This document shows positions 6,609 through 29,308 of a DNA stretch of 29,308 nt, in pieces. Every line of letters begins with the position of its first letter. The first letter of the stretch is position 1. The stretch spans positions 1 to 29,308 of the forward strand of contig DVLP01000310.1 in the NCBI GenBank assembly GCA_018715445.1, written 5' to 3'. This stretch comes from Candidatus Avipropionibacterium avicola. GTDB taxonomy: Bacteria > Actinomycetota > Actinomycetes > Propionibacteriales > Propionibacteriaceae. The translations under genes were made by a program, and so were the position numbers. The notes under the pieces are model-generated. The model did not search any database, had not been told where the DNA came from, and saw only the letters and a program-made list of their open reading frames with translations.

Positions 6609-6618
6609 GCTCGTCCGG

Positions 6619-7254: not shown

Positions 7255-7270
7255 GGGGACAAGCGTAGTA

Positions 7271-7290
7271 GTTTCCACACTCGTGGAACC
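7271..7290. promoter_or_regulatory. TetR operator palindrome overlapping the P450 start
   Basis: GTTTCCAC-ACTC-GTGGAACC: 8-bp arms with a single mismatch around a 4-bp spacer. It lies between the divergent TetR and P450 genes and contains the GTG start of the P450 in its right arm. The size and place fit a TetR dimer site controlling both promoters. Confidence 0.7.
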
Positions 7291-8605: not shown

Positions 8606-8608
8606 GCC

Positions 8609-11309: not shown

Positions 11310-11327
11310 CGGGCCATTCCACCACGG

Positions 11328-12599
11328 TCACCCGCCGAGGGCCCGTTGCGCCTCCTCCAGGAAGGTGGTGGCGGCATCGGCGGCGCTCGCCTTGCCGAAG
11401 CCGACGGACTCGTTGGCACGGGTGAAGGCCGACAGCAGCTCACCGTAGCCGGTGGGCCACGGGCCGGGAGCCGGTCCGGCGAGCTCGGCGTAGTCGTCGA
11501 TGTAGTCGACTGCGGCCCGGGTCGCCCGGTCCGCGTGAGCCAAGCTCTCCCGGGCGGCCTCGGTGGGTGGCACGCCCAGCAGCAGTCCGATCACGTCAGT
11601 GGCCTCGGCATCGTTGATCAGGTGATTGACCAACTGTGCCGCAGCATCCGGGTTCGCGGCGTTGGCGGAGATGCACCAGAAATCGAGCGCCTTCACGAAC
11701 AGCCCGGAGAAGTCACCCTTGGTCTTCTGCGGCATGGGTGACACCTCCACGGAGCCGTCGCGGATGAGCGGCTGGTAGAAGGTCACCTGCTGCACCCAGC
11801 CGGAGGTGAGGGCGGCGTCGCCGGTCGACATCGGGTTGGTCTCGAAGTCACCCCCGGCCGCGGTGACATCGGACGGCGGTGCCGCCTTCGCCTTGCGCAG
11901 CTCGTCCCACAGCGTGAACCACTGGGCGATCACCTCCGGGGTGAGCTGCAGCGATCCGTCGTCGGCGAACTGGTTGCCGACCTCCTGACGGGCGTAGACA
12001 TCGAACATCTGGAAGTTGCCGCCCATGTCGGTCGTGCCGTACTTGCCCGTGTCGGTGGCGAATTCGGTGACCCAGTCGCGGAAGTCGTCCCAGGTCCACT
12101 CGACCGGCACCTCGGCTCCGGCGTCACTGACCATCGACCGACTGGAGAAGATGGCCGGGGCGATGGAGCTCTGGCCCACGCCGTACAGGGTGCCGTCGAC
12201 CAGACCGGAGCCACGGACATCCTCGTCCAGCAAGGACAGGTCGAGACCGTTCAACGCGCTCACGTCGGCGAAGACTCCACGACTGGCGTACTCGACGAAG
12301 TAGGTCATCGACATCCGGAAGACATCCGGTGGTTCACCGGCAGCGGTCTCGGTGGCGAGCTTGTCCCAGTAGTCGTTGAAGGCCACGCCGGAGCCGATGG
12401 CGGTGACACCGTCCTGGGCCTGCGACCACGAGTCCAGCACCGCGTTCATCGCTTCGTGCACCGGGGCGCCGCCGTACCAGCTGACCATCAGCTCGCCGCT
12501 GTCGGCCCGTCCGGAGTCGGCTCGACACCCACCGGCAGCCAGGGCGAGACCGGCTGCCGCTCCCGCGCCCAGCAGGCTACGTCGATCAATCGTGGGCAT
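11328..12599 (-). CDS. Extracellular solute-binding lipoprotein (ABC sugar type)
   Basis: 423 aa. The signal peptide begins DRRSLLGAG, a Tat-like twin-Arg context, and ends AAGGC, so export as a Tat-dependent lipoprotein is plausible with Cys25 lipidated. The mature part resembles family 1 sugar-binding proteins: LMVSWYGGAPVHEAMN, PPDVFRMSMTYF, WTWDDFRDWVTE, TGDAALTSGWV. It starts 3 bp after the sulfatase stop, with AAGGA inside the sulfatase 3' end, and precedes the LacI gene. As with the polyol operon, the partner permease and ATPase genes are absent. The likely cargo is a sulfated or otherwise decorated sugar released by the sulfatase (inference). Confidence 0.9.
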   Translation of the reverse strand: MPTIDRRSLLGAGAAAGLALAAGGCRADSGRADSGELMVSWYGGAPVHEAMNAVLDSWSQAQDGVTAIGSGVAFNDYWDKLATETAAGEPPDVFRMSMTYFVEYASRGVFADVSALNGLDLSLLDEDVRGSGLVDGTLYGVGQSSIAPAIFSSRSMVSDAGAEVPVEWTWDDFRDWVTEFATDTGKYGTTDMGGNFQMFDVYARQEVGNQFADDGSLQLTPEVIAQWFTLWDELRKAKAAPPSDVTAAGGDFETNPMSTGDAALTSGWVQQVTFYQPLIRDGSVEVSPMPQKTKGDFSGLFVKALDFWCISANAANPDAAAQLVNHLINDAEATDVIGLLLGVPPTEAARESLAHADRATRAAVDYIDDYAELAGPAPGPWPTGYGELLSAFTRANESVGFGKASAADAATTFLEEAQRALGG

Positions 12600-12602
12600 G
12601 AC

Positions 12603-14132
12603 TCACTTCCTTGTCCCGGAGCGGTGCCCCGTGTCGTCGGACGATGGCGGTTCGGCCCACCGCCAGTTGTGGGCCGCGATCCGGGGGGTGTAGCGACCCA
12701 CCGGCAGGTCGTCACCCAGCCGCATCATCCAGCGGGCCAGCCACTGGGTCAGCTCGGCGAGGGTCGCGGCGTGCTCCGGATCGTCGGCGAGGTTGGTGAC
12801 CTCCGCCGGATCACGGTCGAGGTCGTACAGCCAGGTGGTGCCGGCCTGATCCATCACCAGCTTCATCGACCCTCGCTGCACCGAGCGTTCCTGTCCCGAC
12901 TGGGTGACGCTGTTGAGTTCGTCGAATGTCCTGCCCTCGTAGGGGAAGTGAAGCTCGGGCCTGGCGTCGGCACCGTACTCGAGCCCGCCGTAGCCGAGCT
13001 CGACGTAGCCGGTGGTGAACTCCTCGCCCGGGTCACGACTGTCGTCGAACAACGGAGTCAGGTCCCGCCCTTGGACGCCGATCGGCAGCTCCTGGTCGAT
13101 CAGTCCGCAGATGGTGGGCATCACGTCGACGATCGAGACGCACTCCTGACGCACCTGGCCGACCGGCACACCCGGACCGGCCATCACCAGCGGGATGCGG
13201 GTCAGCACCTCCGGCAGGCCGGCACCCTTGCGCTGCAGGCCGTACTCGCCCACGTAGTCGCCGTGGTCGGCCAGGAAGACCACGATCGTGTTGTCGAGGT
13301 GGGGGCCCAGCCCGTCGAGCAGGCGGGCGATCTGGTCGTCGACCATGCGCAACATGCCCAGATAGGTCGACAGGTAGCGGCGCCAGTGCTCGTCATAGCC
13401 GGGACGCTTGGACTCGATGAGCTCGCGCAACCATCGGTATCGCCAGGAGAGCTGGTCGACCACCTCCGGACCCGCGTGGCGCTGATGGCCCTCGGCGAGC
13501 TCGGTGAACATCGACCAGTACGGCTCCGGGGCCTGGTACGGATTGTGCGGCTCGGGGAAGGACACCCAACAGAAGAAGGGAACCTCGCTCGGCCCGTCCG
13601 GTCGTGCGGCGTGGATCTCGGCCAACGCATCGTCCACGATCCGGTGCGGCAGCTGCGCCTCGACCGGGTACGGCGTCGCCTCCTCGGCCACGGAGTGGTC
13701 CAGCTCGCCCAGCCACTGGTCGAACTGGGCGTGCACCGGGTCCCGTTCGGGTCCGTTGGTGTGCATGTAGGGGCCGCTGAAGTGGTCGACGGCGTCGGCC
13801 TTGCGGTGCATGTGCGGCTTGCCGTGGAAGAACGTCTCGTAACCGGCCCGGTCGAACACGTCGATCAGGTCCTCGCCGAAGAAGGCCTCGCGGTCATTGG
13901 AGTTCTGCCGGACCTGGTGGGCCGAGGGATAGCGCCCGGTCAGCAGGCTGACCCGGGCCGGGACACAGGCCGGAGCCGAGGTGTGGGCCCGTTCGAAGCT
14001 CGTGCCACGGGCAGCCAGGCCGGTCAGGGTCGGCATCACCGTCGGGCCGTACCCGTCCGGGTCGGTGAGGTCGGCCCGGTGCTGGTCGGTCATCACCCAC
14101 AGCACGTTGGGCCGGGATCGATCGGGGGCCAT
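12603..14132 (-). CDS. Type I sulfatase (formylglycine-dependent)
   Basis: 509 aa from ATG 14132, with GGAGCAGGAG upstream; the frame extension to 14198 would cover the operator and is not used. The N-terminus PNVLWVMTDQHRAD has the metal-binding residues of the alkaline phosphatase superfamily. The sulfatase signature is C-x-P-x-R at 56-60 (CVPAR, followed by VSLLTGRYPSAH); Cys56 would be converted to formylglycine by a maturase encoded elsewhere. DHGDYVGEYG in the middle gives further metal ligands. There is no signal peptide, so it appears cytoplasmic. It heads an operon with a solute-binding protein and LacI regulator, which fits catabolism of a sulfated carbohydrate. Other possibilities are a choline-sulfatase-like or phosphonate monoester hydrolase-like enzyme. 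Confidence 0.92.
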   Translation of the reverse strand: MAPDRSRPNVLWVMTDQHRADLTDPDGYGPTVMPTLTGLAARGTSFERAHTSAPACVPARVSLLTGRYPSAHQVRQNSNDREAFFGEDLIDVFDRAGYETFFHGKPHMHRKADAVDHFSGPYMHTNGPERDPVHAQFDQWLGELDHSVAEEATPYPVEAQLPHRIVDDALAEIHAARPDGPSEVPFFCWVSFPEPHNPYQAPEPYWSMFTELAEGHQRHAGPEVVDQLSWRYRWLRELIESKRPGYDEHWRRYLSTYLGMLRMVDDQIARLLDGLGPHLDNTIVVFLADHGDYVGEYGLQRKGAGLPEVLTRIPLVMAGPGVPVGQVRQECVSIVDVMPTICGLIDQELPIGVQGRDLTPLFDDSRDPGEEFTTGYVELGYGGLEYGADARPELHFPYEGRTFDELNSVTQSGQERSVQRGSMKLVMDQAGTTWLYDLDRDPAEVTNLADDPEHAATLAELTQWLARWMMRLGDDLPVGRYTPRIAAHNWRWAEPPSSDDTGHRSGTRK

Positions 14133-14175
14133 CGTTGTGCTCCTGCTCCGTCGGTTGTCTCGAGTCTGACACAGA

Positions 14176-14191
14176 TTTGCAGCGCTGCAAA
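14176..14191. promoter_or_regulatory. LacI-type operator, perfect 16-bp palindrome
   Basis: TTTGCAGCGCTGCAAA is a perfect palindrome with central CG, the usual architecture of LacI-family sites. It is 43 bp before the sulfatase start and 25 bp before the MFS start, so one bound dimer could control both directions. The LacI regulator is encoded in the leftward operon. Confidence 0.8.
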
Positions 14192-14216
14192 GAGTCACCG
14201 TGTGAGGATGGCTGAC

Positions 14217-15599
14217 ATGGTGAGCGACAGTCGACCACGGGTCCCCCGACTCCTGGTGGCCACACTCGCTGCGGGTACCTTGCTCAACCCGCTGAACAGT
14301 TCGATGATCGCGGTCGCACTGGTCCAGTTGCAGGAAGCCTTCTCGATCGGCGTCGGCACCGTCACCTGGCTGATCTCCGGCTTCTATGTCGCGGCAGCGG
14401 TCGGCCAGCCACTGATGGGCCGGCTCGTCGACCAGTTCGGAGCCCGACGGTTGTTCATGGCAGGCCTGGTCCTGGTGCTGCTCACCTCCGCAGCGATGCC
14501 CTTCGTCCCCAACTTCTGGTGGCTGGTCGCGCTGCGGGCCGTGCAGGCCCTGGGCACCTCGACGGCGTACCCGGCCGCGCTGGTCCTGATCCGTGCTGCC
14601 ACACCCGGCAAGGACGCACCCGCCGGCGCGATGGGGATCCTGGCCATGGCCGGCTCCACCTCAGCCGCGCTCGGCCCGGTGATCGGCGGTGTCCTGGTGT
14701 CCTTGGCCGGCTGGCAGGCCGTCTTCCTGGTCAACGTCCCGTTCACCCTGGTCGGCCTGCTGCTGGCGAGCCGGACCCTTCCCCGTACGACGCCCGACCG
14801 CGCCGACACCGGTCCGCGGTTCCGCGGACTGCTCGCCGAGATCGACCTGCCCGGGATCGCCTTGTTCACCATGACCCTGGTCTCGGTGTTGTTGTTCCTC
14901 CTGTCCTTCTCGACCGAGCCGCGCTGGTGGTGCCTCCCGATCTTCCTGCTGGGACTGGTGGCCCTGATCATCCGTGAGCGAGCCGTACCGACCCCGTTCC
15001 TCGACGTGCGGGGACTGGCCGCGAACCCGGCCCTCACTTCGGTGCTGGTGCAGCAGGCGACCATCCAGCTGGTCTTCTACTGCGCGTTCTTCTCACTGCC
15101 GATGTGGTTGGAGTCAGTGCGGGAGTTCGAGACTGCGGCCGCCGGGGCCTTCGTGCTGCCGATCGCCGGACTCGGGGTGCTGACGATCCCGCTGGCGGCC
15201 CGACTGATCGACCGGCGCGGATCCCGCGCGGCGCTGGTGCTCGGCTCGGTGGTGTTGTTGACCGCCACCATCGGCATGCAGGTGCTCGACGATGCCACCC
15301 CGATCCTGGTGATCGTCGGATTCATGGTGCTCTTCGGGATCCCCAACGGGTTCAACAACCTGGGCCTGCAGACCGCGCTCTACACCGCCACGCCGGCAAG
15401 TCGGACCGGATCCTCCGGAGGGCTGTTCCAGACCTTCCGCTACCTGGGAGCCATCAGCGCGACCGCCGTGATCGGCATGATCTTCGAGAACGACCTCACC
15501 AGCGCAGGCCTGCACCGCCTGGGTCTGGTGATGAGCGCCGGCGCGATCGTCGTTCTCGTCCTGGCATTGACGATCCGCCGCCACCGAGTGGACGCCTGA
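14217..15599 (+). CDS. MFS transporter, DHA2-like drug/metabolite exporter
   Basis: 460 aa from ATG 14217 (GAGG 9 nt upstream; an ATG at 14208 is too near that ribosome site). The protein is a string of hydrophobic helices with the MFS landmark GRLVDQFGARRLFMAG between helices 2 and 3 and the DHA2-type motif LGPVIGGVLVSLAGWQAVFLVNVP in helix 5 region. The N-terminus LLNPLNSSMIAVAL fits motif D1 of this family. The likely role is proton-driven export of a drug or metabolite, or facilitation of sugar uptake given its context. It shares the LacI-type operator with the sulfatase operon, hence perhaps part of the same response. It is convergent with the phosphotransferase gene (31 bp between stops). 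Confidence 0.9.
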   Translation: MVSDSRPRVPRLLVATLAAGTLLNPLNSSMIAVALVQLQEAFSIGVGTVTWLISGFYVAAAVGQPLMGRLVDQFGARRLFMAGLVLVLLTSAAMPFVPNFWWLVALRAVQALGTSTAYPAALVLIRAATPGKDAPAGAMGILAMAGSTSAALGPVIGGVLVSLAGWQAVFLVNVPFTLVGLLLASRTLPRTTPDRADTGPRFRGLLAEIDLPGIALFTMTLVSVLLFLLSFSTEPRWWCLPIFLLGLVALIIRERAVPTPFLDVRGLAANPALTSVLVQQATIQLVFYCAFFSLPMWLESVREFETAAAGAFVLPIAGLGVLTIPLAARLIDRRGSRAALVLGSVVLLTATIGMQVLDDATPILVIVGFMVLFGIPNGFNNLGLQTALYTATPASRTGSSGGLFQTFRYLGAISATAVIGMIFENDLTSAGLHRLGLVMSAGAIVVLVLALTIRRHRVDA

Positions 15600-18086: not shown

Positions 18087-18121
18087 TTGCGGGCCGCTCC
18101 GGTTCACTCTAATCTGGAACC
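18087..18121 (+). promoter_or_regulatory. Possible ahpC promoter in the 276-bp gap before it
   Basis: The stretch 17962-18237 has no convincing gene. It holds TCTAAT at 18108-18113 (5/6 to a -10 box), a weak TTGCGG at 18087-18092, and an inverted repeat GGTTC-N11-GAACC at 18101-18121 spanning the -10. The last could be a regulator site. The leader to ahpC would be about 115 nt. All parts are weak. Confidence 0.3.
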
Positions 18122-18237
18122 AGTCAAAAGTCGGGGTGGGTCATGGGTCCACCAAGGTGTCCTTGCAGGGGTGCAGGTCGGAACCGCGCACCCCGAGGCT
18201 TCTGCCACACACGCAACGAGCAAGGAGAACCTCGCGC

Positions 18238-18801
18238 ATGTCCATGATCAACCAGACCATCGGTGAGTGGAAGGCGACCGCCTTCGTCAACGGGGAGTTC
18301 GTCGACTACTCCTCCGCCGATGTCGCCGGCAAGTGGGCGATCTACTTCTTCTATCCCGCCGACTTCACCTTCGTCTGCCCGACCGAGCTGGGCGACCTGG
18401 CTGACCATCACGAGGAGCTCAAGGGCCTCGGGGTCGAGGTGTTCTCGGTCTCCACCGACACCCACTTCACCCACAAGGCCTGGCACGCCTCGTCGGACAC
18501 CATCAACAAGATCACCTACCCGATGTTGGGCGACCCGACCCACGCCATCTCGCGCCAGTTCGACGTGCTGCGTGAGGACGAGGGCCTGGCCAACCGCGGC
18601 ACCTTCCTGGTTGATCCGGACGGCGTCGTGCAGTTCTTCGAGATCACCGCCGAGGGTATCGGCCGCAACGCCGCCGAGCTGGTCCGCAAGGTCAAGGCCG
18701 CGCAATACGTGCGCAACCACCCGGGCGAGGTCTGCCCGGCCAAGTGGGAAGAGGGCGAGGACACCCTGGCCCCGTCGTTCGACCTCGTGGGCAAGATCTG
18801 A
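18238..18801 (+). CDS. ahpC: Alkyl hydroperoxide reductase C (typical 2-Cys peroxiredoxin)
   Basis: 187 aa, exactly the usual AhpC length. The peroxidatic Cys47 lies in DFTFVCPTE and the resolving Cys166 in GEVCPAKW; Thr44 and the later Arg120 (NRGTFL) complete the active site. It reduces hydrogen peroxide and organic peroxides in the cytoplasm. AAGGAG at 18222-18227 stands 10 nt before the ATG; a second ATG six bases on is an alternative. The TGA overlaps the ahpF ATG (TGATG), so the reductase is translationally coupled. The sequence is of the AhpC/AhpF-dependent type seen in many bacteria, not the mycobacterial AhpC/AhpD type. Confidence 0.97.
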
Positions 18802-20384
18802 TGCTCGACCCGACCTCGCTCGAGCAGCTCAGCTCGGTCCTGACGAACCTGCGCGCACCCATCGAGCTTGTCAGCACACTGGATGAGTCCCCCAAGGGCG
18901 TCCAGATGGCTGAGCTGCTCGACGAGGTCGCCACCACCTCGGACAAGGTGACCCATGTGCGTACGGGGGACGACGCGCGTCGCCCGTCGTTCCGGATCGT
19001 GCGCTCCGGCACCGATGTCGAGGTGACCTTCGCCGGGTCTCCCCTGGGACATGAGTTCCCGTCGTTGATGTTGGCGATGCTCCATGTCAGCGGACATCCG
19101 CCCAAGATCGACGCCGCCATGGTGGAGCAGATCCAGTCGCTGGACACCGACCTCCACTTCGAGACCTATCTGTCGCTGACCTGTCAGAACTGCCCCGATG
19201 TGGTGCAGTCACTCAACATCATGAGTGTGCTGAACCCTCGCATCACCCACACCGCGATCGAGGGCGGCACCTTCGAGGCCGAGGTCAACGACCGCAACAT
19301 CCAGGCGGTCCCGACGGTGTACCTCAACGGGGAACTGTTCGGCAGCGGGAGGATGTCGCTGGCCGACATCCTGTCCAAGGTGGACGACTCCCATGAGGAG
19401 AAGGCGGCCGCGCAACTGGCCGAACGGGATCCTTACGAGGTCCTGGTCGTCGGCGGTGGACCCGCCGGTGCAGCCGCAGCGCTCTACACCGCCCGCAAGG
19501 GCATCCGGACCGGCATCATCACCGACCGGTTCGGCGGGCAGCTGCTCGACACCATGGCGATCGAGAACTATCCCTCCATCACCCACACCGAGGGCCCCCG
19601 GATGGCTGCCGACCTGCAGCAGCACGTCCAGGCCTACGACGTCGACGTGATCACCTCGGTGCAGGCCTCGCAACTGGTGCCGGCCGAGACCACCGGTGGC
19701 ATGCACACCGTCGAGCTCACCAACGGCGCCCAGCTGACCAGTCGGTCCGTGGTGATCGCCTCGGGGGCTCGCTGGCGCACGATGGACGTCCCGGGCGAGC
19801 AGGAGTACCGCAATGCCGGTGTCACCTTCTGCCCGCACTGCGACGGCCCGCTGTTCAAGGGCAAGCGCGTCGCGGTGATCGGGGGCGGCAACTCCGGCGT
19901 CGAGGCCGCGATCGACCTGGCCGGGATCGTCGGTCACGTCACGGTCGTGGAGTTCCTCGACGAGATGAAGGCCGACCAGGTGCTGCAGGACAAGCTCCGC
20001 AGCCTCCCGAACGTGGACGTGCTGCTGGGTCGACGCACCACCGAAGTGGTCGGCGACGGGACCCGGGTGACCGGGCTGGCCCACGCTCCACGCGACGGTG
20101 GCGAAGCCGTCGTCACCGAGCTCGACGGAGTGTTCGTCCAGATCGGACTGCTGCCCAACACCGAATGGGTCGCCGACGTCCTGGATCGCAACCAGCACGG
20201 GGAGATCCTGATCGACAGCCGCGGCGCGACCAATGTCGCGGGTGTCTTCGGCGCCGGTGACTGCACGACGATCTCGTACAAACAGATCACCACGGCCAGC
20301 GGATCCGGAGCGACCGCGGCGCTGACCGCCTTCGACCACTTGATCCGGTCGTCGGTCGACGACGGTGCCCTGGTGGAGGCCTGA
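18801..20384 (+). CDS. ahpF: Alkyl hydroperoxide reductase subunit F (NADH:AhpC reductase)
   Basis: 527 aa, normal for AhpF. The N-terminal tandem thioredoxin-like domain has CQNC at 128-131; the FAD domain begins with VVGGGPAGAAAALYTARKG near 216; the thioredoxin-reductase-like redox centre is CPHC at 344-347; the NADH-binding VAVIGGGNSGVEAA follows; and FGAGDCTTISYKQI near the end binds FAD. It passes electrons from NADH to AhpC. The ATG overlaps the ahpC stop. A strong terminator follows, so ahpCF is a two-gene unit. Confidence 0.97.
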   Translation: MLDPTSLEQLSSVLTNLRAPIELVSTLDESPKGVQMAELLDEVATTSDKVTHVRTGDDARRPSFRIVRSGTDVEVTFAGSPLGHEFPSLMLAMLHVSGHPPKIDAAMVEQIQSLDTDLHFETYLSLTCQNCPDVVQSLNIMSVLNPRITHTAIEGGTFEAEVNDRNIQAVPTVYLNGELFGSGRMSLADILSKVDDSHEEKAAAQLAERDPYEVLVVGGGPAGAAAALYTARKGIRTGIITDRFGGQLLDTMAIENYPSITHTEGPRMAADLQQHVQAYDVDVITSVQASQLVPAETTGGMHTVELTNGAQLTSRSVVIASGARWRTMDVPGEQEYRNAGVTFCPHCDGPLFKGKRVAVIGGGNSGVEAAIDLAGIVGHVTVVEFLDEMKADQVLQDKLRSLPNVDVLLGRRTTEVVGDGTRVTGLAHAPRDGGEAVVTELDGVFVQIGLLPNTEWVADVLDRNQHGEILIDSRGATNVAGVFGAGDCTTISYKQITTASGSGATAALTAFDHLIRSSVDDGALVEA

Positions 20385-20404
20385 GCCACCGCACCACACC
20401 AGTT

Positions 20405-20442
20405 CGAGGGGCGTCCCGCACACCGCGGGGCGCCCCTCGTTT
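20405..20442 (+). terminator. Intrinsic terminator after ahpF
   Basis: A 15-bp stem (left arm 20405-20419, right arm 20425-20439) with one G-T pair, a 5-nt loop and then TTT. The arms are CGAGGGGCGTCCCGC and GCGGGGCGCCCCTCG. It ends 58 bp after ahpF and could also act on the opposite strand for the Abi-like gene. Confidence 0.85.
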
Positions 20443-20463
20443 GTCAGTCGAGCCCCGACGAAC

Positions 20464-21039
20464 TCACCTCTTCAACGGATACCGTTCAAGGAGAGTAGGC
20501 ACTCCACTGCTTGCCTCTATGTAGCCCTTCAGGTCCGGATCCAGATAGCCGGCGAGATCGGTGAGGTCGTCGTACCGCGCTGCAACATCCGCCGACCAGA
20601 TCCGATGGTGGTGACCGATCCGATTGCGAATGGTCCGCAATCTCGCGACCCGGTCATGAACCGTTGCACGAGCACGGTCGGGCGCGCCGGGAAAGGCTGC
20701 GGCGAGGTCTGGCCACAGGAACGTCTGCTGCTTGGAGAGCATCTGGTGCCAGAACCCAAACGGAAGCTCGGACACAATCTGGTTGCCGTCAACTCTCTTG
20801 TGGTTCCTTCGCACCCGCTTCTGCGCTTCCTGGATCTCGAGGTAGGGATGATTGTGCCGTCCATGACCTCGCGCATCACGGCCCAGCTCCCGTGCGTCAT
20901 CGAAGACCCACAGGCTTGAGCGCAGTCTCCTCCTGTGCCGCTGCGCCAGTCGCCGATCAATCGCATTGCGCAGCGCCACTTCAACATGCCCCAGCGACTC
21001 CCAGAACGTCGATGCGAGCGTGGCATTCCACTCGTACAA
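20464..21039 (-). CDS. Abi-like HEPN-domain protein, N-terminally short
   Basis: 191 aa from TTG 21039. The sequence follows the Abi_2/Abi-like family: YEWNATLASTFWESLGHVEV, VALRNAIDRR, then ELPFGFWHQMLSK in the middle, and the HEPN ribonuclease motif R-x4-H as RNRIGH at 138-143, then ...PDLKGYIEASSGVP near the end. By family knowledge these are abortive-infection proteins with predicted RNase activity. The family usually has 25-30 more N-terminal residues before Y-x-W-N; here a TAG 12 codons upstream of the TTG closes the frame, so the start may be lost or in another frame. It overlaps the PIN gene 3' end by 59 bp. Intact function is uncertain; the C-terminal core is complete. Confidence 0.75.
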   Translation of the reverse strand: MYEWNATLASTFWESLGHVEVALRNAIDRRLAQRHRRRLRSSLWVFDDARELGRDARGHGRHNHPYLEIQEAQKRVRRNHKRVDGNQIVSELPFGFWHQMLSKQQTFLWPDLAAAFPGAPDRARATVHDRVARLRTIRNRIGHHHRIWSADVAARYDDLTDLAGYLDPDLKGYIEASSGVPTLLERYPLKR

Positions 21040-21655
21040 GATGACCCAGAAGCGCCTCGCAGCGGATGCAGACTACGCCTCGGAAGATCGTGCTCGGCTG
21101 GTCTGGATCAGCCTGGGCCGGTGCCGTGTCGTAGGCGCCGGCGAACTGTCCGGTCAGTCGGGGATGTCTGAGGCCGAGCATCCGGTGGATCTCGGAGGCC
21201 GTGCGCGAGGGGCTCTTCTGCACGGCCGCGAGCAGGTCAACCCCCTCCACGTACGCCCGTTCGGTGAATCGTGACGCCATGAAGTATTCCGGGTTCACCG
21301 CGCTCAGCCCATGCGCCAAAAGGTCATCGAATGCAAAGGAATCCGCGTCGGTCGTGATCAGATGCCTGGCTCCCGCACGGATCGCGTCAGCGAGCACCTG
21401 CCGATCCTCAGGCGTACTGGTCACCAGACCTTCTGTGTGCGGCGCGGTTGGCGACAGTTCGGTGCCCAAAATCTCCTGGCGCACGATCGATGTCCGCGAT
21501 GCCCGGCCGCGAGCATGCCGATCGGCCTCAGCCTCGACGTGCCTCGACCACGTCCACCGCAGGCCATCCGCACGCGCACCCGCGATCAGCAAGGTGCGTG
21601 TGATAAGTGAGGCAAGGGCATTCGCGTCCAGGAAGAGCAGCGGCGCTTCACTCAC
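20981..21655 (-). CDS. PIN-domain toxin (type II toxin-antitoxin-like ribonuclease)
   Basis: 224 aa from GTG 21655, which overlaps the end of the antitoxin remnant by 8 bp. PIN features are visible: FLDANALA with Asp10, an acidic HVEAEAD near 39-45, and a late acidic pair in GARHLITTDADSFAFDDL (Asp103, Asp105). The conserved TPEDRQVLADAI precedes it. PIN domains are Mg-dependent RNases of toxin-antitoxin systems. The C-terminal 45-50 residues after AGAYDTAP look unlike family sequence and run over the Abi-like reading frame, so the native stop may have been lost. Its antitoxin is broken, so the toxin is either unexpressed, inactive or neutralised by another copy. Confidence 0.8.
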   Translation of the reverse strand: MSEAPLLFLDANALASLITRTLLIAGARADGLRWTWSRHVEAEADRHARGRASRTSIVRQEILGTELSPTAPHTEGLVTSTPEDRQVLADAIRAGARHLITTDADSFAFDDLLAHGLSAVNPEYFMASRFTERAYVEGVDLLAAVQKSPSRTASEIHRMLGLRHPRLTGQFAGAYDTAPAQADPDQPSTIFRGVVCIRCEALLGHLVRVECHARIDVLGVAGAC

Positions 21656-21725
21656 CGAGCAGCTCGGCCTCGATGTCGGCGGCGGACGCTTCAGCCATGC
21701 GGCGCATGAGTTGGGACTGCTGCAT
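21648..21725 (-). pseudogene. Antitoxin C-terminal remnant before the PIN gene
   Basis: A 25-codon open stretch, beginning with an ATG at 21725 and ending in TGA overlapping the PIN start. It reads MQQSQLMRRM followed by AEASAADIEAELLGE. Its position, its overlap with the toxin gene and the amphipathic acidic tail fit the C-terminal toxin-binding end of an antitoxin. The DNA-binding N-terminus is missing because the IS remnant starts 10 bp upstream. Confidence 0.55.
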
Positions 21726-21735
21726 GGATGATGGA

Positions 21736-21758
21736 TGACAGTTGGGGTGTCAGGCCGC
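21736..21758 (+). repeat. 23-bp inverted repeat, left copy
   Basis: TGACAGTTGGGGTGTCA plus six more bases; exact inverse of 29135-29157. It is the outer end of the IS3-type element and bounds the 7.4-kb segment. Confidence 0.9.
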
Positions 21759-21860
21759 AGGGCCCGCGGCGGGGTTCATGATGGCCTCGTGCTCGATGGG
21801 GTCAATCGGCCCAGCCGAGCCTGTCGGTGGTGGTTGCGTTCGATACACGTGATGGTCGGC
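21736..21860 (-). mobile_element. Left IS3-family remnant (transposase 3' end and terminal repeat)
   Basis: On the minus strand this encodes the end of an IS3 transposase, close to that at 29143: ATCGAACGCA..., then LGRLTPIE-like bases with a 1-bp loss (frameshift), then EAIMNPAAGPAA and the stop at 21750. The first 23 bases (starting TGACAGTTGGGG) are identical in inverse to those ending at 29157. A 9-bp deletion is also visible against the right copy. The rest of the element is gone; similarity fades near 21860. Confidence 0.85.
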
Positions 21861-22008
21861 CTCCAGGCGCCATCGGACGCTGATGCCCCACGTCCGCGGA
21901 ATCTCTGGTGGCAGATCCTCCCCGGAAGGGAGATACTCGAGCCACGGTCTCAACCCGCCGGGGTACCGTACTGTCGCGGGCCCGCTCGCCGAGTCCGAGA
22001 CAGCGCAC

Positions 22009-22029
22009 AAGGAGCAAGGAGCAAGGAGC
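22009..22029 (+). promoter_or_regulatory. Triple Shine-Dalgarno tandem repeat before the 598-aa gene
   Basis: AAGGAGC is repeated three times without interruption and runs straight into the ATG at 22030. The last copy leaves only 1 nt between GGAG and ATG, the middle one leaves 8 nt, which is near optimal. The decided start at 22030 rests on this. The stretch 21861-22008 upstream holds no gene I can support and presumably the promoter. Confidence 0.8.
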
Positions 22030-23826
22030 ATGACGTCAGTTGCCCCCCACCCGATCATCGATCTCGTCGACGTCGTCTGCTCCCGGATCGAGGGACTGGC
22101 CCCGGAGGCCAAGGACTACGAGGCTGAGGGCGATCCGTGGGGTGTCTGCGCCTTCCTGATCGAGCCGAGCGCGGACGCGTACCACGTCACGGTGGCGAAA
22201 CTGATCGGCCGCGAGCTGCGGACCGACGAGATCGGCATTCCCGCTGAAGCGAAGATTGGGGCGCTGGCGACCGAGTTCGTCACTGCGTTCGCCGAGGAGC
22301 AGGGCGACCTCGAACCGACGCAGGCTATCCAGATCGAGTTCGAGCGCGATCGTCGAAGGGTCATTGTGCGGTACCGCTCTCCGAACCGTTGGGGTAGTCC
22401 ACGGTCGGGGTGGGCCGCCTACACAATGGCCGAGCATCCCGAGATCGCCGGGCCGCTCGATGAACGCTGGAACATTGCCTCGGAGGAGGAACGGCAGGCG
22501 CAGCAGATGATGCGCGACCAGACCGATTCCTATGCGAGTCTGCGCGAACAGATCGAGGACAGCCAGATGTTCCTCGACGAGGTCCGCGCTCGCGTCGTCC
22601 CCGCCTCTGACCAGGCGGAGGTCGAGCGGTATCGCCATCAGAACGGCGACGAGGCCGTCACTGAATGGATCGACCACGCCGCGTTCATCGCCGAGGGCGG
22701 CTTCCTGGAGCTTCATGCTCGCCTTTTCGAGCTCCAGTACACCCGAGGCGACGACCTCCCGACGCTGGTTCGCCGGCTGGAAGAGTGGCACCGCGACACC
22801 ATGCGTGCGTTCCGGCTGTTCGAGCACCGGGCAGGGACGACGGAGTTCGCCACACCCACCCACCATCGTGAGTACTTCGCCATCAAGACCTGTGTCGACC
22901 TGATCTTCGTCGCCACCGTGCTCGGTCGCGCCGACATCGCTCGCGAGATCCTGGATCATCCCGCGATCTCTCATCTGCCGTACCGCCAGTTCGACTCCCT
23001 CGCGGTCGCCCACGGGGTGCCGCAGGACTCCGACCTTCACGCGGATCGCTCGAACGTCTGGCACGAGGACCCACGAAGCAGGCTGTGGCTGAAGGTCGCC
23101 GCTTCGACGCCGGGACGGCGACAGGCAGCGTTCACCAAGTTCGTCCGCTCGTGGCGAGAGGAACTCGCGAAGAAGCGCTGGCGCCAGACGTGGAACTGGG
23201 AAGGTGCCATGCTCGCCGTCCTCTTCGACCTGGATGACAGCGAGGTCCGCGACACCGCCGGCTACCCGGCCGACCTGGTCGACTGCGCCCGCAGCCAGGG
23301 AGTACCGGCTCTCGCCCCAGGCGTGCGGCTGCCGGGACCATGGAAGAAGCCCACCCCGCCGAAGGTCCTCGAACCCGCACGTACCCGCGACCCCCTTACC
23401 TCTCACACCGAGGGTGACGAGCTGCCACTGGCCGACTTCGCCACGCTCCTCACCCCGGTCGACGGTGACCCGGTCCCCGCCACCGATCTCGACGCGCTCC
23501 TCGACGCCGCCGTCGAGACCGGCACCATCCACCTCGTCGACTCCAGCGCTATCGACCGCACCGAGCTCGGCGAGATGCTCCAACTCACCTGCCGCATCGC
23601 CGGCCTCCCCTCCCCGGGCCGGATTCCGGCCCAGATACCCAAGTCCACCCCGAAGGCGCTCACCAAGTTCGACACCTGGCTCGAATCCGTCGGCGTACGC
23701 CTCCTCCAGGTCGATGTCGACTCCGGCGACCATTTCATCGCCCCCGTGCTCGCCGCCGACCACGCCGCTATCGCCGGCCGCACCTGCGCCGGCGTCCGAC
23801 TGATCTCCGCCGACCAGATCCGGTGA
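22030..23826 (+). CDS. Multi-domain immunity-like protein (YezG/DUF600-like + PoNi DUF1910/1911 + DUF6630-like)
   Basis: 598 aa, soluble, no signal peptide or membrane segment. Residues 5-150 resemble the YezG/DUF600 immunity family (short alpha-beta domain ending in a WAAYTMAEHPEIA-type stretch). Residues 160-425 match PoNi immunity proteins: DUF1910-like ELHARLFELQYTRGDDLPTLV at 227-247, then DUF1911-like FTKFVRSWREELAKKRW at 368-384 and WNWEGAMLAVLFDLDDSEVRD with GYPADLVD up to 418. After a Pro-rich linker, residues 540-598 resemble DUF6630 (FDTWLESVGVRLLQVDVDSGDHF). By family knowledge PoNi proteins neutralise PoNe DNase toxins. The neighbouring 1390-aa gene starts 19 bp downstream. No toxin is present. 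Domain calls are by eye; PoNi is the surest. Confidence 0.75.
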   Translation: MTSVAPHPIIDLVDVVCSRIEGLAPEAKDYEAEGDPWGVCAFLIEPSADAYHVTVAKLIGRELRTDEIGIPAEAKIGALATEFVTAFAEEQGDLEPTQAIQIEFERDRRRVIVRYRSPNRWGSPRSGWAAYTMAEHPEIAGPLDERWNIASEEERQAQQMMRDQTDSYASLREQIEDSQMFLDEVRARVVPASDQAEVERYRHQNGDEAVTEWIDHAAFIAEGGFLELHARLFELQYTRGDDLPTLVRRLEEWHRDTMRAFRLFEHRAGTTEFATPTHHREYFAIKTCVDLIFVATVLGRADIAREILDHPAISHLPYRQFDSLAVAHGVPQDSDLHADRSNVWHEDPRSRLWLKVAASTPGRRQAAFTKFVRSWREELAKKRWRQTWNWEGAMLAVLFDLDDSEVRDTAGYPADLVDCARSQGVPALAPGVRLPGPWKKPTPPKVLEPARTRDPLTSHTEGDELPLADFATLLTPVDGDPVPATDLDALLDAAVETGTIHLVDSSAIDRTELGEMLQLTCRIAGLPSPGRIPAQIPKSTPKALTKFDTWLESVGVRLLQVDVDSGDHFIAPVLAADHAAIAGRTCAGVRLISADQIR

Positions 23827-23845
23827 CCCCCAACAGGAGCCAGGA

Positions 23846-26800
23846 ATGACCGAGGACCTGGACCTGCAGGCGGCCAACGAGGTCGGCGAGGAGAAGCTGC
23901 CGCTCACTCCAGACACGATCGCGACGTTCGCGACGCAGATGCTCGCGATGCCGTGGCAGGAATCCGACGACCCGGACGACCCCGTGGTGATGTGGCACCT
24001 CGGCGGATACGAGGGCTCCTCCGCGTTCGGGTTCCTCCACGTGATGGTGCTCGGCGAGGAGGCCGAGCCGGCCGAGCTGGCGGAACTGACCCCGCCGACG
24101 ATCGCCGCGTTCACCGAGCGTTGGGGCCAGCCCGAGCGGACCGAGGTGGCAAGCCTGCCGGAGTTCGACCCGTCGAACCCGACCGGACCGTCGATGCTGC
24201 GGTTGATGGCGGATCATGTGGGGACGACCGGACTGCACTGGTGGCCGGCGGGCCCGGACCGATTGTTCATACTCGGCGTCCGCGAGGAAGAAGCGAAGCC
24301 GAGCCGCCTGGTCGAGTTCTGGGTGGTTCCGCCCGGCCTGCTCGAGCAGCAGGAGAGCCCCGAACCGGCCGTGTCCGACAGGGCCGACCGCGGCACCGGG
24401 TCCGCGCGTACGCTTCAGCACCTCCTGGACGAGGAGGCCCGGACCGTCCTCGGACGCCGCACCGCGGCGCAATGGCATGAGGTCATGCGTACCGTCGACG
24501 AGGCGGGCCGCAGCCGCGGAGGTATCAGTTGGGCGGCAGAGCCCGAGCACCACGGCTTCGAGTTCAGACAGTGGTCCGACGGTGCCGGGTCCGTCGCGGG
24601 CTGGTTCTTCGCGCCCGACGGCCAAGTGCTGCTCACCGTCTTCGACCATGAGTCCGCCCTGAACCTGCTTCCCGAGCACCGCGACGATTTCCAGGTCCAG
24701 GACCGGATGTACGACGGTTTGGCGCCGGAGCTAAGACAGCTGCTGCACAACCCGCCGCTGAGCTCGGACTTGACGATCGACGAACACCACATGGCTGCTT
24801 TCATGATCTGGTCCTCCGGCATCTTCGTCTACGACGGCGAGACCTGGTCGGCGGCCCCCGGACTGGCCGCGTGCATGACGAAGACCCCGGAGCTGTTCCA
24901 GACTGACCGAGACGGTTTCCTGAACAACGCCCGCGGGCAACTCGTCGGGCTGGCCGAGACCGGGCTGCCGCTGGTCCTCGACGCGATCGAGGCGGAGTAT
25001 GCCCGACTCGCGAACGACGCCAGCACCGCACCAGCGACCTCCCTCGAGGGCACCTCAACACCGCCGCCCTTGGACGACTTCGTCATCTCCGCCGCCGAGC
25101 AGATGGTCGAGCTGCCGTGGCCGGAGTCCGCGGACCCGGACGAGCACCCGGCCTGGAAGATCGAGAAGCTCAGCGGGCGCACGGCGTACGGGATCGCCCA
25201 CCAGCTGAAGTTCGGCTGGGACGTGACCCGCAGCGAGAAGACGCTGAGCGCTGAGCGGCTTGCGGCAATCGACGCGCGATTCGGAGCACACCAGGCGCTC
25301 GACCTCAATGCGCTTCCCGAGTATGACCCCACCGCCGAGATTCTCGACATGCGTGCCCTGCTGGCGTTGATCCTGCGCGACACGGGCGCCACCCGGGCAC
25401 TGCGATGGCAGGCGACCGGCCGCCGCATCCTGCTGGCCGGTATCGAGGACGACCCCGGCGGCCTCGTGGCACAGCTCACCCGCCGTACACCCGCGGGGGC
25501 GGAACGGCTCACGGGCCTCGTGGTGGTTGCGCCTGAGATGTTCGAGGCGCCGTCGGAATCACCCAACCTCACCACCATGGCGCTGCCCGTGATCGCGGAC
25601 TTCGCGATGCGCTACTCGTGGACCGACGAGGAGCGGGAAGCGTTCCGATCGCCGCCGTACCCGCTGCCGGCAGGATTGGTCCCGGCGATCGAGGCACTCG
25701 AGGCGGCGCTGCCGGCCGATCACGACGAGCGACGGCGGGAGTTGATCGCCCGGGCGGATGAGACGTACGTCCCCTCCTCGTTCTTCTCCGGCGCCCGCCG
25801 ACCGATGGCGCGTACCGGACTGCCTGCGGTGGTGCTGGAACTGATCTCGGACGGTGTGCTCTTCGCTGACATGGACGAGGTCGAGTTCCTGCTCACTACC
25901 GTTCATGACCTGGACCTTCCGGAAAGGGACCGCGACGCGGTGCGACACGAGCTGCTGCGTCGACTGGTCGAAGTGCATCTTCTGGGCGGCGACCTCAGCT
26001 CGGCGCTGAATGCCGCCGAACGGATGAGCACGGTGGCCTGTGTCAGTGGCCACCTGGGCTGGCGCGAGGTAGCTGCCTACTTCGCCGCGACCGGCAGCCC
26101 GACCGAGTTCCTCGACCGGTGGGACCGCTACGATGCCCATCAGGACCTCAGCCAGCTCCGTCGGCTCCAAGAGCGACTCGTCCGGACGGTGGCGATCCAT
26201 GAGGGCTGGCGCGCCGCGATCGAGGTGGCTGAGGACCGCCGGTTCGGCGCCGCGTTCCGACGGCACGCGTTCTACGCGCGTGCGTACGGTTACGACGACC
26301 TGATCACGTTGTTCTCCGGCGAGGCCGCCGGCGTCCTGGACGAGACCGGCGAACTGCACGCCCTGGTCGCGGCGGCGAGCGCCGAGACCCCGCGGCCGCC
26401 GACGGCGGACCACCGCGGCGCCGAGGAGCTCCTGGCACGGATCAGCGCACTCGACCCGGAGAGCAACGGCGAGGCGATGCGAGCACGCGACGGACTGCTG
26501 TTCTCACTGCAAGGCGCGGTCGGCGAGGAAGAGACGTTGAGCCGACTGCGGGCGCAGCTGCGGACCCCGCAGTGGGGCCCAGAGGCGACGCAGGTGGTCG
26601 ATGCTGGGGCGGACGGGCCGGTCCGTCGCACCCACATCGTGATGTCCAACAGCGAGAGTACTGGGCCACTCCTCGACAACCTGCGCCCCTACCCCGAACA
26701 GATCCGATTCGCCCTGAACCAGATGAACGGGGACACGTTCTGGGAGTACCGCCTGTGGCGGGCGCCTGCGGACGCGAACCTGCTCGAGACGCTGCCCGAC

Positions 26801-28018
26801 TCCGGCGGGTACCTGCAGTGCGGCGGCCGTGCGGAGGCGATGACCCTGCAGTGGCGCCGGCTGGACGCCGATGGGGTCACGCACCAGTACGCCGTCGGCA
26901 AGTCCGACGTACCGCAGGACGCGCCCGCCGTACACTTCGCCGCCCGGACCGGCGGATCGGTCGGGGACGTACCCGCCGATCAGGTCTTCACCGCCGACGA
27001 GGCCGCACGCGTGGTCCATCACTACTTCCTCACCGACACGGTCCCCGACAGCTACCGGCTCAGTCCGATCAGCTCGTGCTGTAGGACGCACGACCACCCC
27101 AGCTGCGAGGGACGATCGTCGCCGCCCGGCCGGACATTGGAGTTCGCGGACCGCAACCTCAAGATCGGCGTACTCCAGGAGCTGATGGACCAGGGCCGCC
27201 TGCCCCGCTTCGACTGGGCCGAGTTCGCCGCCTCGCAGCAGATCGACCTCGACGAGAGCGGGGTGCTCGGTACGGCGATTCCGGAGGCGCTGGCGTACGT
27301 CGACGCCGTCTCGATCACCCCGGAACTCGCCGAGCACGTCACCAGCATCGAGATGAAGGCGAGCAATGACATCTACGTCGAGCTCTCGCTGGACTGGAAC
27401 GGCGAGGACGACCTGTTCGACGTCAGCACCCTCACCGACCTGCGTCATCTCCCGCGGCTTCGGTCGGTGGAGCTGCTGTACGACCTGGTCGACCCTGATC
27501 CGGCCCTCCTCGACGAGATCGCTGCCGCACGCGACCACGGTATCGACGTCCGCTATGCCGACGAGTGGTCCGGCCGCGTGCCCGATGACCCCTCCGGGAG
27601 GAGGCCCTGGAGCGTTCGGGATCGACGTCCTGAAACCCCCGATTCCACGCGAGCTGGAGCGACGCCGAAGACCGCCGAACAGCCCTCCGAGATGACGGTC
27701 GCCGCCGCCGCGCCCGGCGGCTGGTTCCTGCTGAGCCAGGGCGTCGACCTGTTCCTGGACGCGCGCTACAGCATCGGCGCCGCGTTCGACGGCTCGCTGC
27801 TGTTCCGGCTCTCCCCGGCCGAGAAGGCGGCGTACACCCTGGACGGCGACGCGTACCTCAGCAGGCTCGCCATGCGCATCCACGACGAATCGCTGTGGAG
27901 ACATGGCCGGCCGTTCTACAACCGCGATCTGTACCGCGGCGAGAAACGGAAGCACTATCGGCAGCAGGCGTCGGGGGCGATCGCGGCGTGGCGGGACGAC
28001 GCGTCCCCGGGATCCTGA
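23846..28018 (+). CDS. Giant multi-domain immunity-like protein with DUF6892 and duplicated N-terminal domain
   Basis: 1390 aa; AGGAGCCAGGA precedes the ATG. Soluble, no signal peptide. Residues 20-165 and 410-568 are two copies of one domain: QMLAMPW/QMVELPW, DPDDP/DPDEHP, SLPEFDP/ALPEYDP, FILGV/LLAGI. Residues 185-390 are an unrecognised mixed domain; 570-915 is Ala/Leu-rich and helical. Residues 928-1075 have the strand and Gly pattern of Imm1-like proteins (YLQCGG, QYAVGK, HHYFLTD; weak). Residues 1097-1215 are a clear DUF6892: FADRNLKIGVLQELM, FDWAEFA, IPEALAYVD, WNGEDDLFDV. Residues 1283-1390 (GGWFLLSQGV, FYNRDLY, AIAAWR) are another unnamed domain, joined by a low-complexity linker that may come from a frameshift fusion. 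Most likely an immunity partner of the upstream gene. Confidence 0.7.
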   Translation: MTEDLDLQAANEVGEEKLPLTPDTIATFATQMLAMPWQESDDPDDPVVMWHLGGYEGSSAFGFLHVMVLGEEAEPAELAELTPPTIAAFTERWGQPERTEVASLPEFDPSNPTGPSMLRLMADHVGTTGLHWWPAGPDRLFILGVREEEAKPSRLVEFWVVPPGLLEQQESPEPAVSDRADRGTGSARTLQHLLDEEARTVLGRRTAAQWHEVMRTVDEAGRSRGGISWAAEPEHHGFEFRQWSDGAGSVAGWFFAPDGQVLLTVFDHESALNLLPEHRDDFQVQDRMYDGLAPELRQLLHNPPLSSDLTIDEHHMAAFMIWSSGIFVYDGETWSAAPGLAACMTKTPELFQTDRDGFLNNARGQLVGLAETGLPLVLDAIEAEYARLANDASTAPATSLEGTSTPPPLDDFVISAAEQMVELPWPESADPDEHPAWKIEKLSGRTAYGIAHQLKFGWDVTRSEKTLSAERLAAIDARFGAHQALDLNALPEYDPTAEILDMRALLALILRDTGATRALRWQATGRRILLAGIEDDPGGLVAQLTRRTPAGAERLTGLVVVAPEMFEAPSESPNLTTMALPVIADFAMRYSWTDEEREAFRSPPYPLPAGLVPAIEALEAALPADHDERRRELIARADETYVPSSFFSGARRPMARTGLPAVVLELISDGVLFADMDEVEFLLTTVHDLDLPERDRDAVRHELLRRLVEVHLLGGDLSSALNAAERMSTVACVSGHLGWREVAAYFAATGSPTEFLDRWDRYDAHQDLSQLRRLQERLVRTVAIHEGWRAAIEVAEDRRFGAAFRRHAFYARAYGYDDLITLFSGEAAGVLDETGELHALVAAASAETPRPPTADHRGAEELLARISALDPESNGEAMRARDGLLFSLQGAVGEEETLSRLRAQLRTPQWGPEATQVVDAGADGPVRRTHIVMSNSESTGPLLDNLRPYPEQIRFALNQMNGDTFWEYRLWRAPADANLLETLPDSGGYLQCGGRAEAMTLQWRRLDADGVTHQYAVGKSDVPQDAPAVHFAARTGGSVGDVPADQVFTADEAARVVHHYFLTDTVPDSYRLSPISSCCRTHDHPSCEGRSSPPGRTLEFADRNLKIGVLQELMDQGRLPRFDWAEFAASQQIDLDESGVLGTAIPEALAYVDAVSITPELAEHVTSIEMKASNDIYVELSLDWNGEDDLFDVSTLTDLRHLPRLRSVELLYDLVDPDPALLDEIAAARDHGIDVRYADEWSGRVPDDPSGRRPWSVRDRRPETPDSTRAGATPKTAEQPSEMTVAAAAPGGWFLLSQGVDLFLDARYSIGAAFDGSLLFRLSPAEKAAYTLDGDAYLSRLAMRIHDESLWRHGRPFYNRDLYRGEKRKHYRQQASGAIAAWRDDASPGS

Positions 28019-28216
28019 TCGGCCGAACGGACCACCGGCTGTTCAGAGTCCAGTGGGGACGCGCCGATGGCCATGGTCGGATCTTGGTCGAGGAGATCGA
28101 TGCGCCCTCCGCGGGCAGGCCAGTGAGGTTCCGGTGACGGAAACGCCGTGGGATCTGCCTCGAGGACGTATGCGAGGTCGTCGCGTTCGTCGCGCAGATC
28201 CTCGAGGTCCGCGCGA
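28019..28216. other. Intergenic stretch with possible gene relic on the minus strand
   Basis: No gene is supported. On the minus strand, 28100-28215 reads as ADLEDLRDERDDLAYVLEAD with codon-third GC bias, but has no plausible start and runs on into the 3' end of the giant gene. On the plus strand a short frame ends at 28137. A degraded remnant is possible. Confidence 0.25.
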
Positions 28217-28357
28217 CTGATCGAGCTCGTCCCAGGCTGGTCCGAGACGACCTGGCGTGACTGGCTGGACGAGCGGGGCCAGAGGTTCCGGGAGGGAATC
28301 GAGATCACGGCGTCTGATTCGTTCCAGGGATACAGGCGCACGATCGATGAGCACCTC
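28217..28357 (+). pseudogene. ISL3-family transposase fragment
   Basis: About 47 codons that read LIELVPGWSETTW, RDWLDERGQRFREGIEI, then ASDSFQGYRRTIDEHL. This is the ISL3 pattern (V-P-G-R-S, W-L-x-x-R, D-P-F-x-G-Y) from the middle of the transposase; neither end remains. It is joined in frame to an IS3 fragment within one uninterrupted reading frame. Confidence 0.6.
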
Positions 28358-28492
28358 GAGATCGCGACCGCGGAGTACATCAACCGGTTCAACCATCGAC
28401 GACTCCACGACGGGATCGGCATGATCCCGCCCGTCGAGCTCGAGGACATCTACCATCACCACCAGACCGTGCCGGCGACCGCTGGCGCGGCA
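28349..28492 (+). pseudogene. IS3-family transposase C-terminal fragment
   Basis: About 47 codons reading LEIATAEYINRFNHRRLHDG, then IGMIPPVELEDIYHH and HQTVPATAG. FNHRRLH and the P-P-x-E-x-E sequence mark the C-terminus of an IS3 OrfB. This is a different IS3 lineage from the following one. No stop of its own is seen at the expected point; the frame runs on into unrelated bases. Confidence 0.75.
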
Positions 28493-28521
28493 CTTTGCGA
28501 GCCTCTCACAAACCCTGGGCG

Positions 28522-29143
28522 ATTCAGTTCGGGAAGAAGCGTGGCAAGAACGGAAAACGACCAGGCCCACCAGTCCACGATGACCTGGTCAAGCGTGACT
28601 TCTCCGCCGATGACGCCAACGAACTGTGGCTCCCCGACATTCCCCCACACTCCGCGCGGGAGGTGCCCCCTCCGAGCACTGGACCGATGAGGGCAAGCTC
28701 TACCTCTGCGCCATCAAGGACGGGTTCTCAGGCCGGATCGTCGGCTACTCCATGGACAGCCGGATGAAGGCGCGCCTCGCGGTGAACGCCCTGGACAACG
28801 CGCTATCCAGGCGTCGCGACGCCGCCGGTTGCATCGACCGATTGAACCCAAGCAGTTCAGGTCACGGAAGTTCGTGCACGCCTTGAACCGTCATCACCTC
28901 ATCGGATCGATGGGCCAAGTCGGTGCTGCCGGGGACAATGCTGCGATGGAATCGTTCTTCGCGCTGCTCCAGAAGAACGTGCTCGACCGCAAGCGTTGGC
29001 GGACCCGAGAGGAGCTACGGATCGCGATCATCACCTGGATCGAACGCACCTACCACCGTCGTCGCCGGCAGGCCCGTCTGGGCCGATTGACCCCCATCGA
29101 ATACGAGGCGATCATGAACCCGGCCGTGAGCCTCGCGGCCTGA
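28522..29143 (+). pseudogene. IS3-family transposase (OrfB-type), frameshifted
   Basis: The protein is spread over three frames: KKRGKNGKRPGPPVHDDLVK to LPDI (first catalytic Asp, about 28636), then from 28674 EGKLYLCAIKDGFSGRIVGY to RRRDAAGCI (to 28835), then from 28853 QFRSRKFVHALNRHHLIGSM to the stop at 29143. The Glu is in AAMESFF (28949-28951). The second catalytic Asp in the usual H-S-D-R-G-S-Q is lost by a deletion near 28836-28852. At least two frameshifts plus that loss make it inactive. The end matches the left remnant. Confidence 0.88.
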
Positions 29144-29157
29144 CACCCCAACTGTCA
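29135..29157 (-). repeat. 23-bp inverted repeat, right copy
   Basis: Exact inverse of 21736-21758 and end of the IS3 element; it begins with the last codons of the transposase (GCG GCC TGA). Confidence 0.9.
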
Positions 29158-29162
29158 CCTAA

Positions 29163-29308
29163 ACGTGCGGCAGTCCCGAGCTGCTGTTCGGCCCGTCCAC
29201 CGCTGAGCAGCGGGCGCTGCTGGATCCCCTCCCGGAGGGCGTCAGCGTCGTCAACGGAATCGACCGCGACACCGCCGGCGTCGCGGTCATGTTCGCGAGC
29301 AACGGGTC
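29163..29308 (+). CDS. Truncated gene of unknown function, 5' end lost at IS junction
   Basis: Open from just after an in-frame TAA at 29160-29162 to the window edge. It reads GSPELLFGPSTAEQRALLDP, then PEGVSVVNGIDRDTAG and VAVMFASNG. High GC at third positions and the even composition suggest real coding. No start codon with ribosome site is visible, so the IS end seems to have cut away the 5' part, or the gene lies on in another form. I do not recognise the family. Confidence 0.45.

Follow-up and report, generated by a model that had tools for sequence, protein, structure and literature searches.

A candidate orphan polyimmunity operon encoding two multidomain proteins in a variable genomic island

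Two adjacent genes, referred to here as A and B, are best read as an orphan polyimmunity operon, a reading that we regard as probable. It is based on the occurrence of a PoNi domain in A and of a DddI-like domain in B, on the toxin-linked relatives of the latter, on the lack of Rhs repeats, on the soluble nature of both proteins and on their absence from a genome of the same genus. The window, i.e. the whole stretch of DNA analysed (29,308 nucleotides), is an entire contig of a 3.25-Mb assembly of 469 contigs.

Layout of the gene pair

Gene A (22030..23826, + strand; 598 aa) was delineated from its ORF, Pfam matches, a family alignment (A1) and the coding pattern, and gene B (23846..28018, + strand), which encodes a multidomain protein of 1390 aa, from its ORF. 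Both genes are complete, lie on the same strand and are separated by 19 bp, with an AGGAG site ahead of the B start; the two adjacent genes are present exactly as the original prediction had described them. Their frames are unbroken across 6 kb, and codon-position GC follows the pattern of genuine high-GC genes. Three tandem copies of a Shine-Dalgarno-like AAGGAGC motif (22009-22029) immediately precede the start codon of A. The two proteins are acidic and devoid of membrane stretches (maximum 19-residue hydropathy of 1.5 for A and 1.4 for B); judging from these sequence properties, they are soluble, cytosolic proteins.

The Pfam scan covered eight ORFs of the window, the remaining ORFs being judged by eye from their translations. 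Among the ORFs scanned, the four closest to the operon (an Abi_2 gene, a PIN-like gene and two transposase pieces) showed no polymorphic toxin domain, and a search of the assembly (91% complete) for Rhs repeats was negative. The operon was thus found to be without a toxin gene, as originally claimed.

Domains of A and B

Protein A comprises an N-terminal unit with no family match, defined by the family alignment (residues 1-165; 22030..22524, +), a PoNi_C (DUF1911) domain (residues 345-416; 23062..23277, +), which scores 25.1 bits against a Pfam cut-off of 25, and a DUF6630-type C-terminal unit (residues 488-581; 23491..23772, +), which in A itself is below the Pfam threshold. A 5.8-billion-entry search, in which the best 7995 candidates were scored, returned seven matching proteins, including a near-copy of A (P0004); A and these seven proteins make up the eight rows of A1. 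All eight rows match both PoNi_C (best E-value 6e-10) and DUF6630 (best E-value 3e-8) at E-values up to 0.1. The A1 profile retrieved from the PDB PA2201 (2FEF) and the DUF1911 proteins 9waq and 9vy2, which are described as structures of the PoNi protein VP14460 (PMC13377157). DUF1910, the other half of the full PoNi that had been predicted, has no Pfam match in A, and a homologous stretch preceding PoNi_C is kept across A1. The assignment of the C-terminal end to DUF6630 holds weakly, through the family rows.

The PoNi-DUF6630 core was found again in Microbacterium, in Frigoribacterium and in a Ruania MAG. The extra N-terminal unit is present in A, P0004, P0005 and P0006, and is therefore common to two of the six more distant relatives (P0005 and P0006). 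No PDB match below an E-value of 0.69 was obtained for residues 1-165. A YezG/DUF600-like (Imm36) region had also been proposed, and this label found no support: neither A nor B has a Pfam match to it at E-values up to 5, the family model has no match in the genome of origin, and hhalign gave probabilities of 0.1-0.2% with shallow profiles of 3-4 sequences (0.2% for residues 1-165 of A against a 4-sequence YezG profile).

Protein B can be divided into seven units, all encoded on the + strand. The first, D1 (residues 23-173; 23912..24364), is a predicted alpha/beta domain (pLDDT mostly 70-89) and is followed by D2 (residues about 184-395; 24395..25030), recognized from its sequence relatives, and by D3 (residues 411-574; 25076..25567). 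The middle of the protein (residues about 581-915; 25586..26590) is helical in a low-confidence model (whole-model mean pLDDT of 57). Next come a DddI/Imm1-like domain defined by its predicted fold (residues 930-1075; 26633..27070), DUF6892 (residues 1098-1228; 27137..27529), and a C-terminal unit aligned with nine relatives (residues 1264-1383; 27635..27994), for which no Pfam match over cut-off was found. DUF6892, which had been predicted, is the sole domain named in B by Pfam at cut-off (109 bits against 24.6).

D1 and D3, which were missing from the original domain list, share 28% identity (BLASTP E-value of 9e-16). Their alignment score stands 22 s.d. above shuffled sequences (300 shuffles), and the other 20 pairs among seven units all stand at 1.2 s.d. 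or less; on this sequence comparison, D1 and D3 are duplicated copies of a single domain within B.

DddI (Imm1) provides immunity to the deaminase toxin DddA. Residues 930-1075 of B are predicted by modelling to fold like DddI, and it is through this fold that the Imm1-like segment of the original prediction survives. Because the Imm1 Pfam score of the segment (15.4 bits) is under the 22.4-bit cut-off, no Imm1 match was found in the genome of origin, and profile-profile comparison to Imm1 was negative (hhalign, 0.2%), we do not file the segment as an Imm1 member. It also differs from DddI in forming part of a 1390-aa protein, with no toxin gene alongside. Rhs, nuclease or WXG100 genes lie 0.4 to 3.9 kb from its relatives in four of the nine loci, two of which are probably one shared locus, as found from the part of the neighbours that was scanned.

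No relative of full-length B other than B itself emerged from the 5.8-billion-entry search (best 7996 candidates scored). Parts of B nevertheless match differently built proteins in at least 18 of the 198 genomes of the family and at least 25 of 293 genomes drawn from the order, the genome of origin included in both counts and the best few candidates being scored in each genome. The units of B thus mix and match, as immunity domains of polymorphic toxins do. For the middle of B, these searches yielded no relative. On plasmids of Streptomyces and Tsukamurella, relatives of D2 occur as stand-alone proteins. A 516-aa protein that carries the D2 unit in another setting (L061:3450-5000, +) is a further candidate of the same kind as A and B. 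In a family of proteins of ~380-400 aa (L042, L043, L046 and L073), it is the C-terminal unit of B that forms the end, and those of L046 and L073 have no Pfam match. As for A, no protein beyond A itself was found in the 198 family genomes, with up to six candidates scored in each.

Known immunity systems and predicted action

Polyimmunity proteins were proposed in silico from sequence in 2012 (Zhang et al. 2012, PMC3482391); they are described as containing up to 10 immunity domains. Their operons comprise two or three genes, most often with no toxin among them, and polyimmunity loci are at times near recombinases. A and B fit this class in their layout: several domains of candidate immunity type are combined in one polypeptide, and the two tandem genes lie on one strand, separated by a short gap, without a toxin gene and beside pieces of mobile elements. 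On the other hand, SUKH, SuFu, Imm33 and similar domains usual in the class were not detected by Pfam in A or B, PoNi (Imm-PA2201) and Imm1 are outside the common combinations given in the survey section of that paper, and most units of A and B have no assigned family. A single immunity-type fold is established per protein (PoNi in A, along with DUF6630; the DddI-like domain in B), i.e. two in the operon. The pair had been presented as undescribed: the kind was already described in 2012, and what stands is that the search yielded no second protein resembling B over its full length and that the domain combination is unusual within this known kind.

As regards PoNi, the protein was reported to bind its toxin directly and to rescue E. 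coli; cross-protection between a Bacillus pair and a Vibrio pair was absent, the PoNi tested being toxin-specific (PMC6688995). A resembles these proteins in its PoNi_C domain and its PDB matches. It differs from them in its additional N-terminal unit and DUF6630-type end, in a DUF1910 part unseen by Pfam and in the lack of a PoNe gene among the neighbouring ORFs scanned; that study allows for PoNi genes without a partner. The pair also recalls the acquired interbacterial defence clusters and orphan immunity genes of Bacteroidales, some of which are on mobile DNA (PMC12247911, PMC10470768). The A and B units differ from these in being fused into two proteins, in what the kinship pattern marks as a probable actinobacterium of the Propionibacteriales. 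In Bacteroidales, orphan immunity genes are separate genes.

In the mechanism that we propose, a competitor's toxin domain delivered into the cytosol would be bound and blocked by the matching module of A or B. Through its PoNi part, A is predicted to act against a PoNe-type DNase. The DddI-like part of B, whose putative immunity role is drawn from its modelled fold, would counter either a deaminase like DddA or some other toxin borne on Rhs or WXG100 proteins. D1/D3, D2, DUF6892, the C-terminal unit of B, the DUF6630-type unit and the N-terminus of A may cover further toxins, a role suggested by the company they keep. Since two of the about ten units in A and B are immunity-like by this evidence, and since the PoNi tested are toxin-specific, the broad-range shield originally put forward is a hypothesis. 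It is conceivable, albeit doubtful, that D1/D3, D2, the C-terminal unit, the A N-terminus, DUF6630 and DUF6892 each represent a new immunity family, A and B being a modular antidote library. If so, fusion into giant proteins would enable a single transcript to guard against many attackers, and five or more new immunity families would be named at once. The units without an assigned family are testable candidate immunity families by association, and constitute the value of the pair. Because two modules have known or modelled targets (PoNe-type DNases and DddA-like deaminases), the neutralisation of several unrelated toxins by a fused protein is directly testable. Among the papers listed in literature searches, none was seen to pit a polyimmunity protein against several unrelated toxins. 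For a Xenorhabdus bacteriocin, a multidomain immunity protein has been characterised against its own toxin (PMC4745447).

A and B might instead have another intracellular job, as a protein-protein scaffold or in stress or regulatory functions, the immunity-type folds being present and unused for immunity. This we consider unlikely. In its favour, a family match is lacking for several of the units, the resemblance to immunity proteins is confined to the PoNi and DddI-like parts, and homologues of the Tdi5b immunity protein have been reported in clusters unlinked to antagonism (PMC13392607). Moreover, the neighbourhood survey of homologues, which points to toxins for the DddI-like relatives, placed the relatives of D1, D2, DUF6892 and the C-terminal unit mostly among ordinary genes. 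Genes in the fetched loci were called with a simple script rather than a standard gene finder (it mis-called at least one gene, the A relative in L071), and the tally took in two called genes on each side, omitting genes of more than 1300 aa or fewer than 60 aa, those truncated by the end of a locus, and the whole of L063 and L066. Among the 25 of 142 neighbour families listed, no toxin family was found near the relatives of DUF6892 (nine loci), of the C-terminal unit (eight loci plus L073) or of D1 (four loci), nor among the families listed near those of D2 (L061 and two of six plasmid records); a tally limited to 25 of the 142 families and to two genes per side could overlook toxins near these relatives. 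Three large genes by DUF6892 relatives, scanned singly, encode an SMC protein, a carboxypeptidase and an ABC/FtsX protein, not toxins.

DUF6892 has a loose tie to type VI secretion. On two Rhizobium plasmids, a DUF6892 protein is encoded about 3.5 kb from the immunity genes of a T6SS island, which are Tdi1/GAD-like in both, with SUKH in one and polymorphic toxin type 15 in the other. DUF7256 accompanies DUF6892 in the one Rhizobium plasmid protein scanned. Three of the fetched loci (L101, L105 and L106) represent T6SS islands on Rhizobium plasmids; they hold Tdi1/GAD-like genes and, close by, a DUF6892 protein, SUKH being in L101 and toxin type 15 in L106. In Frigoribacterium sp. JB110, one of the three A-relative loci, a 399-aa protein bearing the C-terminal unit of B is encoded some 3 kb away from the A relative; such proximity is expected by chance at about 0.002 in three loci, a rough figure derived from a density of 20 non-self matches in 197 genomes of another family with best-candidate scoring.

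Against another intracellular job, one operon holds two different immunity-type folds. The patchy presence of the genes (pieces of B in the family genomes counted above, A in its own only) and their placement in a variable island are furthermore ill-suited to a core function.

The variable island and its borders

A 123-bp remnant of an IS3 3' end (21736..21858, - strand) lies to the left of the operon, inverted relative to the one on the right, where a degraded, frame-broken string of IS3/ISL3-type remnants (28148..29170, + strand) adjoins a truncated gene. The IS end common to both borders gave no third match in the assembly, which is fragmented and may have lost repeats. The degraded ends bear out the IS-flanked segment that had been predicted; its mobility may be supposed from them.

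On its right-hand margin, the window carries this truncated copy, without the first 15 codons, of a 125-aa gene that is shared with a genome of the same genus (G001). In G001, this gene (88% over 42 aa) and AhpC-AhpF (DNA 89.5% identical) are separated by 7.7 kb in which no DNA match was detected, which places the cassette in a variable island. Bounded by ahpF and the 125-aa gene, the island spans 18110-29303 in the window and 4972-15136 in the G001 locus (L112). The latter holds different genes, among them transposase pieces and a nucleotidyltransferase-like gene, as judged by eye. Neither A nor B was found in G001, and the operon was probably acquired.

These borders bear on a second alternative, which we find quite improbable: A and B could be the leftover of a larger toxin-immunity locus that lost its toxins, had its flanks trimmed by IS insertions and is under no present selection. 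The degraded IS ends on both sides, the missing codons of the right-edge gene and the lack of Rhs repeats in the assembly would agree with such a history. It accounts poorly for the intact frames of A and B and their normal codon-position bias, and the fusion of many units with an internal duplication speaks for an array under selection. Moreover, 23 and 35 member sequences make up the protein clusters of B and A, respectively, with one listed contig each.

That A and B belong to an anti-phage defence island, acting with the Abi_2 and PIN-like genes immediately upstream, is very improbable, as these genes are on the opposite strand and beyond the left IS end, no PADLOC model matches A or B at an E-value of 0.01, and no B relatives were found in viral contigs or phages. 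The two neighbours, an Abi_2/PD-T4-5-like gene (20464-21039, - strand) and a PIN-like gene (20981-21655, - strand) whose score is under the cut-off of the model, overlap by 59 bp and possibly form a phage-defence or toxin pair of their own in the variable island.
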